From contig CADDZQ010000003.1 of assembly GCA_902812505.1 (NCBI GenBank), positions 1 to 51,044 of the forward strand: 51,044 nucleotides of DNA, in the 5' to 3' direction. The notes under the pieces are model-generated. The model was not told where the DNA came from and searched no databases. It was given only the letters and a program-made list of their open reading frames with translations. The stretch is from an archaeon. Lineage in GTDB: Archaea > Thermoproteota > Thermoprotei_A > Marsarchaeales > Marsarchaeaceae. A program made the translations under genes and the position numbers. How positions within the stretch are numbered: position 1 is the first letter of the stretch; the number at the start of each line of letters is the position of its first letter. Below, piece by piece: positions 45,711 through 46,109 of the stretch.

Positions 45711-45986
45711 TCATAACCTATAGACGTATTCTATTTCGATATTACTCACCGAGTCAAGCGATGACACTAAAGACTCTATAACTTCTGTTCCACCATCTAG
45801 GTTCTCTGGCACAACCATATGCAACCTTAAAGCCACCAAACCGAAAGCGATCGGTTCCTCATCAGCCTTCTTTATCTCCGCCACACCCCGCAGTTTCTGC
45901 TTTACTTCATCGAGCAGCTTAGCCCTGTCAGTATCCACCGATTTAGGATAAACCTTTCCAACCACAACAACCTTACCAGCAGCCAT
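45711..45986 (-). CDS. Elongation factor aEF1B (EF-1 beta)
   Basis: 91 residues from ATG 45984-45986, with a GGTGGT Shine-Dalgarno-like stretch upstream (a TTG 45998 start would add four residues). KVYPKSVDTDRAKLLDEVKQ and EEPIAFGLVALRLHMVVPE match the C-terminal guanine-exchange domain of EF-1 beta, which recycles EF-1alpha. It begins 18 bases after the 3' end of tRNA-Met on the same strand, so the two may share a transcript. Confidence 0.94.
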   Translation of the reverse strand: MAAGKVVVVGKVYPKSVDTDRAKLLDEVKQKLRGVAEIKKADEEPIAFGLVALRLHMVVPENLDGGTEVIESLVSSLDSVSNIEIEYVYRL

Positions 45987-46004
45987 ACGCACCACCAAAT
46001 TAAG

Positions 46005-46109
46005 TGGGCCCGAAGGGATTTTCAGACACCGTCATTTGAACCCTTGACCGTCAGGTCTCCCCCAGCTAGGTTATGAGCCTGCCGCTCTACCAAGCTGAGC
46101 TACGGGCCC
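46005..46109 (-). tRNA. tRNA-Met (anticodon CAT) with two introns
   Basis: 105 bases, 74 after splicing. The acceptor GGGCCCG pairs with CGGGCCC, A73 is at 46005. The anticodon stem GCAGG with loop CTCATA is interrupted by a 15-base intron (46057-46071) at the canonical 37/38 site. The T loop is interrupted by a 16-base intron TGACGGTGTCTGAAAA (46019-46034) at 59/60: here AAGGG-TTCA, bulge AAT, GAC-GGT-GTC, TGAA, bulge AAT, CCCTT forms a perfect bulge-helix-bulge. Elongator Met is most likely; tRNA-Ile2 with modified CAT is the alternative. Unspliced, the gene lacks a normal T loop. Confidence 0.88.

Follow-up and report, generated by a model that had tools for sequence, protein, structure and literature searches.

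Non-canonical tRNA introns are widespread in archaea. The position between nucleotides 59 and 60 is listed among the archaeal non-canonical tRNA intron positions (PMC4090602), tRNAscan-SE 2.0 reported 673 non-canonical introns in 217 archaeal genomes, with 107 in Thaumarchaeota (PMC8450103), and some Asgard genomes harbour introns in most of their tRNA genes, often at non-canonical positions (PMC11291895). Archaeal cut sites have been placed between the second and the third bulge residue, and mismatches in the central helix are known from biochemically mapped splice sites of Sulfolobus tokodaii (PMC4307357). The strict bulge-helix-bulge is the kind of motif cleaved by all archaeal endonuclease types (PMC6379350, PMC4033280), and (alpha-beta)2 endonucleases represent the broad-specificity type in the published classification (PMC6379350). 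A preliminary description of the locus presented here regarded non-canonical introns as known mainly from Thermoproteales. This does not agree with the published counts, and the T-loop intron as a Thermoproteales-only feature was rejected.

The window, a stretch of 51,044 nucleotides from the genome of a heat-loving marsarchaeon, harbours on the minus strand a pre-tRNA gene with anticodon CAT, most likely tRNA-Ile2(CAU) (positions 46005-46109). The gene comprises 105 nt, and 74 nt without its two introns. Read from 46109 to 46005, its layout is GGGCCCG-TA-GCTC...GAGC-G-GCAGG-CTCATA[15 nt]A-CCTGA-CGGTC-AAGGG-TTCAAA[16 nt]T-CCCTT-CGGGCCC-A. The 5′ exon (mature positions 1-37; 46072-46109) includes the anticodon at 46073-46075 and is near-invariant in the six family genomes. 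It is followed by a 15-nt anticodon-loop intron at the canonical position 37/38 (46057-46071), the middle exon (positions 38-59; 46035-46056), a 16-nt T-loop intron at 59/60 (46019-46034) and the 3′ exon (positions 60-73; 46005-46018), which carries the discriminator A73 and does not encode CCA; middle and 3′ exons were delimited by sequence reading and family alignment. The boundaries of the 37/38 intron were set by convention in our own reading, because the registers 37/38 to 41/42 yield one and the same mature sequence. In the alignment, all six family members have a G.A mismatch at mature positions 27-43, the pair that closes the anticodon stem, whereas the orthologues read outside the family possess a C-G pair there.

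Downstream of the tRNA, on the same strand, lies an open reading frame (45711-45998) which starts 6 nt past the tRNA 3′ end and which, judged by its sequence, is probably aEF1-beta-like. The same order and strand were found in all six family genomes, with a spacing of 6 to 28 nt. This suggests that tRNA and reading frame are located on one shared transcript.

Both introns of the preliminary description, including the second one within the T loop, were confirmed, and the motif of the latter is exactly as described there (TTCA/TGAA, AAT bulges and a GAC-GGT-GTC hairpin). In RNA letters, the T-loop intron possesses a UUCA/UGAA central helix flanked by two AAU bulges of 3 nt each, a GAC-GGU-GUC hairpin on the inner side, and the T stem AAGGG/CCCTT on the outer side, and is thus a strict 3-4-3 bulge-helix-bulge. 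Cuts after nucleotide 2 of each bulge would restore a normal 7-nt T loop, TTCAAAT. One result stands against it: thermodynamic folding fails to predict the central helix of 4 bp and opens it into a large internal loop. The family harbours four distinct T-loop introns, with lengths of 16, 19, 18 and 18 nt, and the strict motif was retained in all four: the central helix has 4/4 pairs and the outer helix its 5 pairs intact, while the inner stem varies between 2 and 4 pairs (GAC/GTC; GACC/GGTC; GG/CC; GAGG/CCTC).

The 37/38 intron differs in this respect, since its central helix in the window has 3 bp and an A.G mismatch. Among the family genomes (G000 to G005, G000 being that of the window), the four pairs are complete in G001 only, and 3/4 pairs were found in G000, G002, G003/G004 and G005. 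The precursor therefore combines a relaxed motif at 37/38 with a strict motif in the T loop. The preliminary description took the T-loop intron as a mark of an endonuclease able to process relaxed sites. As the T-loop motif is strict, it gives by itself no evidence of relaxed specificity; what remains of that claim is carried by the relaxed anticodon-loop intron and by endonuclease genes of the broad-specificity type.

Neither ARAGORN nor an Rfam search with default filters detected the two-intron tRNA in the window, and it was absent from the 39 tRNA matches of the default-filter Rfam search of the whole genome. A permissive search with the Rfam tRNA model (141 bases), made independently of the manual reading of the gene, returned an end-to-end match of 39.6 bits (gathering threshold 29) with one insertion each in the anticodon loop and the T loop; this is the covariance-model check that the preliminary description had named. 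ARAGORN called no gene in the unspliced precursor, nor after removal of the anticodon intron alone, and called a tRNA(CAT) once the T-loop insertion was removed, a call restored in all six family genomes.

ARAGORN assigned introns to 14 of the 39 other tRNAs of this genome, although some of its isotype labels look wrong. By our own reading, tRNA-Thr(TGT) (C2:1656-1748, minus strand) and a tRNA-Leu (C9:9456-9555, plus strand) each carry an apparent intron at about 30/31, on the 5′ side of the anticodon stem. The segments C4:36409-40920 and C32:1215-5726, on two contigs, repeat one arrangement: an identical tRNA-Met lies some 4.4 kb from a tRNA-Cys of nearly the same sequence. Either the segment is duplicated or the assembly contains redundant strains.

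The family sample comprised six genomes from four genera. Both introns of the two-intron tRNA were present in 6/6, and in the alignment the exons are near-invariant and the introns divergent. An exon-pattern search of 84,980 species genomes gave matches that include Marsarchaeota G1 BE_D, Marsarchaeota G2 ECH_B_1, which belongs to the genus of the window, another Marsarchaeota MAG and two archaeal MAGs. Outside the family, 21 orthologues were read from 29 hand-picked genomes of the class, a count that leaves out an elongator-like tRNA (the second row of G015) among the 22 rows. The T-loop intron was found in none of the 21, while the 37/38 intron was present in some of them. Eight of the 29 genomes yielded no match, and these include every one of the four genomes of the sister family, which belongs to the same order. 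A class-wide covariance-model search of 229 genomes gave a match in every genome, and the 30 matches given as loci were read. Many of the matches fall on other tRNAs that resemble the two-intron tRNA in body, such as the Lys tRNAs matched in G011 and G012, and they were therefore excluded from the presence counts. The simplest reading of this distribution is a probable gain of the T-loop intron on the branch to the marsarchaeal family.

A search of the six genomes for further T-loop introns of the same type returned 23 matches, not clearly above the reversed control. Twenty of the 23 had loci and were tested by in-silico splicing, the three without a locus being left out; only the six copies of the two-intron tRNA gave a tRNA.

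The type of splicing endonuclease, another check named in the preliminary description, could be read from the genes. They encode two subunits of the broad-specificity type, and each was found in 5/6 family genomes, alpha above the Pfam cut-off; neither was found in G005 (71% complete). The alpha subunit of the window's genome (L078, 172 aa) possesses the catalytic motifs with Tyr, His and Lys, and its best match among solved structures is the alpha subunit of Aeropyrum pernix (PDB 3p1z, E 8.4e-37). The marsarchaeal K36-P37-K38 is aligned to K44-P45-R46 in the A. pernix crenarchaeal-specific loop, including the conserved Lys, and a K-P-K/R signature has been described for this loop (PMC12397907). 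The beta subunit (L137) is encoded separately and lacks the catalytic motif. It matches the non-catalytic half of Archaeoglobus fulgidus EndA (8.4e-14) more closely than the A. pernix beta subunit (0.033), and also shows weak matches to the partner subunits of N. equitans, P. aerophilum and A. pernix. By the published types, the marsarchaeal enzyme would thus assemble as an (alpha-beta)2 endonuclease and be predicted to have broad specificity.

The preliminary description labelled the gene as tRNA-Met, and this label had to be revised. It is highly probable that the two-intron tRNA is tRNA-Ile2(CAU), the reader of AUA, because its orthologues nearly match tRNA-Ile(GAT), because initiator and elongator CAT tRNAs exist separately, and because relatives encode TiaS. 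The body of the tRNA is of the isoleucine type and distinct from both tRNA-Met kinds, of which the family possesses an initiator (AGCGGGG, 5/6) and an elongator-like GCCGGGGTCTCC tRNA (5/6), next to the two-intron kind (6/6). In one family outside Marsarchaeaceae, the orthologue of G030 is separated from tRNA-Ile(GAT) of G022 by 3/74 mature positions, anticodon included. Within the genome of the window, tRNA-Ile(GAT) is the nearest of 39 tRNAs (62/74) and the other CAT tRNAs match at only 45/77, but this nearest-neighbour support is thin, because Lys(CTT) follows at 61/74. A TiaS domain is encoded in 5/6 family genomes, at most about 2.3 kb from the initiator tRNA gene in G001, G002, G003, G004 and G005. 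Neither TiaS nor initiator tRNA was found in the window's genome (78.7% complete), and, given this proximity, one missing stretch could account for both absences. AUA is the commonest isoleucine codon (366/696) in the 25 reading frames of at least 200 aa in the window. A search aimed at fixing the identity of the elongator by way of a species lacking tRNA-Ile2 found no tRNA-Ile(UAU) in 398 genomes of the phylum. If the same gene were instead the elongator tRNA-Met(CAU), the GCCGGGGTCTCC tRNA, present as two identical intron-free copies in the window's genome, would have to read AUA. ARAGORN's label, derived from the anticodon, points in that direction, and the anticodon intron reported for tRNA-Met(CAU) of Pyrococcus furiosus and Methanococcus maripaludis (PMC7668247) would fit the earlier label by analogy. 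However, orthologues of the two-intron tRNA outside the family deviate from tRNA-Ile(GAT) at as few as 3/74 positions, and the nearest matches of the GCCGGGGTCTCC tRNA are Ser tRNAs, Ile(GAT) being absent from its ten best. Moreover, anticodon introns here span many isotypes, Ile(GAT) included, and in G015 the orthologue is intron-free while a second CAT tRNA, of the GCCGCCG type, has an anticodon intron. We therefore regard the elongator assignment as unlikely.

Returning to the tRNA-Ile2(CAU) reading, it has to be asked whether the gene is functional and what its T-loop intron does. The preliminary description held that another intact tRNA-Met(CAT) would mark the gene as a pseudogene; two intron-free CAT genes do occur in the window's genome, but they belong to a different isoacceptor. 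A decayed tRNA into which the T-loop insertion had come by chance would also agree with the 27-43 mismatch and with the failure of standard scans to detect the gene. Nevertheless, the exons are near-identical across six genomes of four genera while the introns diverge and yet keep their motif, no second copy of the isoacceptor was found in the window's genome, and when the 16-nt insertion was shuffled 200,000 times, only 430 shuffles (0.2%) retained 4 central pairs together with 3 or more inner ones. Decay combined with a chance insertion is extremely improbable on these grounds and was rejected. A real T-loop intron might alternatively be of benefit by breaking an attachment site for integrating elements in the 3′ part of the tRNA, in line with the general proposal for tRNA introns of Randau and Soll, as cited in PMC3293823. 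Against it, no stretch of 12 nt or more from the spliced T-loop/acceptor end recurs in the window outside the gene's own 3′ exon, and we consider this benefit very improbable.

Taken together, we are confident, though a little less than in the isoacceptor assignment itself, that Marsarchaeota of the Tardisphaerales type possess a functional two-intron tRNA-Ile2(CAU) gene whose transcript would be spliced by a two-subunit endonuclease, with an intron probably gained in the family. In the precursor, UUCA of the T loop would find its partner UGAA close to the intron's 3′ end, and the resulting strict bulge-helix-bulge would stack on the T stem. The two-subunit endonuclease would cut after nucleotide 2 of both AAU bulges, and the exons would be joined to TTCAAAT by a ligase, presumably RtcB. 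The mismatched 37/38 intron would be removed by the same endonuclease, helped by its crenarchaeal-type loop, and TiaS would then convert C34 to agmatidine, so that the tRNA could be charged with isoleucine. Once gained on the line of the family, the T-loop intron probably persisted because an ordinary tRNA is left once it has been removed.

A more specific role is conceivable, in which the T-loop intron acts as a timing device that holds back elbow formation, agmatidine addition and charging until splicing. A T loop that still carries the intron could not form or receive its usual modifications, and later steps would therefore be delayed; Pus4 of Cyanidioschyzon merolae is blocked by a T-loop intron (PMC9602550). 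If true, this would provide a guard against AUA/AUG misreading, and C. merolae tRNA-Ile(UAU) would have arrived at this solution independently, but we give the idea only a small chance of being correct.

The sequence evidence thus indicates a real and conserved T-loop intron with an ordinary mechanism in a notable tRNA, and such introns have been described in archaea before. With it, Marsarchaeota join the lineages with T-loop tRNA introns. AUA is a heavily used codon, and default tRNA scans can miss the gene of its likely reader; the strict and the relaxed motif in one precursor form a conserved natural substrate pair for a crenarchaeal-type endonuclease. Members of what was formerly Marsarchaeota have been cultivated (Tardisphaera) and placed in the order Tardisphaerales (PMC12542729), therefore splicing and its order are directly testable.

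Our literature search, with most subscription journals outside its reach, returned no report of tRNA introns in Marsarchaeota. Similar to the archaeal non-canonical introns described in PMC4090602, which include 59/60, the intron presented here shares position, bulge-helix-bulge and kind of endonuclease, and such introns often have a companion at 37/38; the differences are the host lineage, Marsarchaeota, and the isoacceptor, and the search returned a report of neither. Caldiarchaeum subterraneum, likewise not one of the Thermoproteales, has tRNA introns in the D-, V- and T-arms and several introns in some of its tRNAs, but it belongs to another lineage and the multi-intron tRNAs named for it in PMC3293823 are Leu, Glu and Thr. 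Regarding the (alpha-beta)2 endonuclease of A. pernix (PDB 3p1z), the marsarchaeal alpha subunit shares the catalytic motifs and the K-P-K/R loop signature, whereas the beta subunit resembles the non-catalytic half of A. fulgidus EndA more than it does A. pernix beta. The closest functional parallel appears to be tRNA-Ile(UAU) of C. merolae (PMC9602550), likewise an AUA-type tRNA with anticodon- and T-loop introns of the hBHBh′ type. It differs in its host, a red alga, in its UAU anticodon and in a third intron in the D arm, and the likeness is drawn without a claim of common intron descent.
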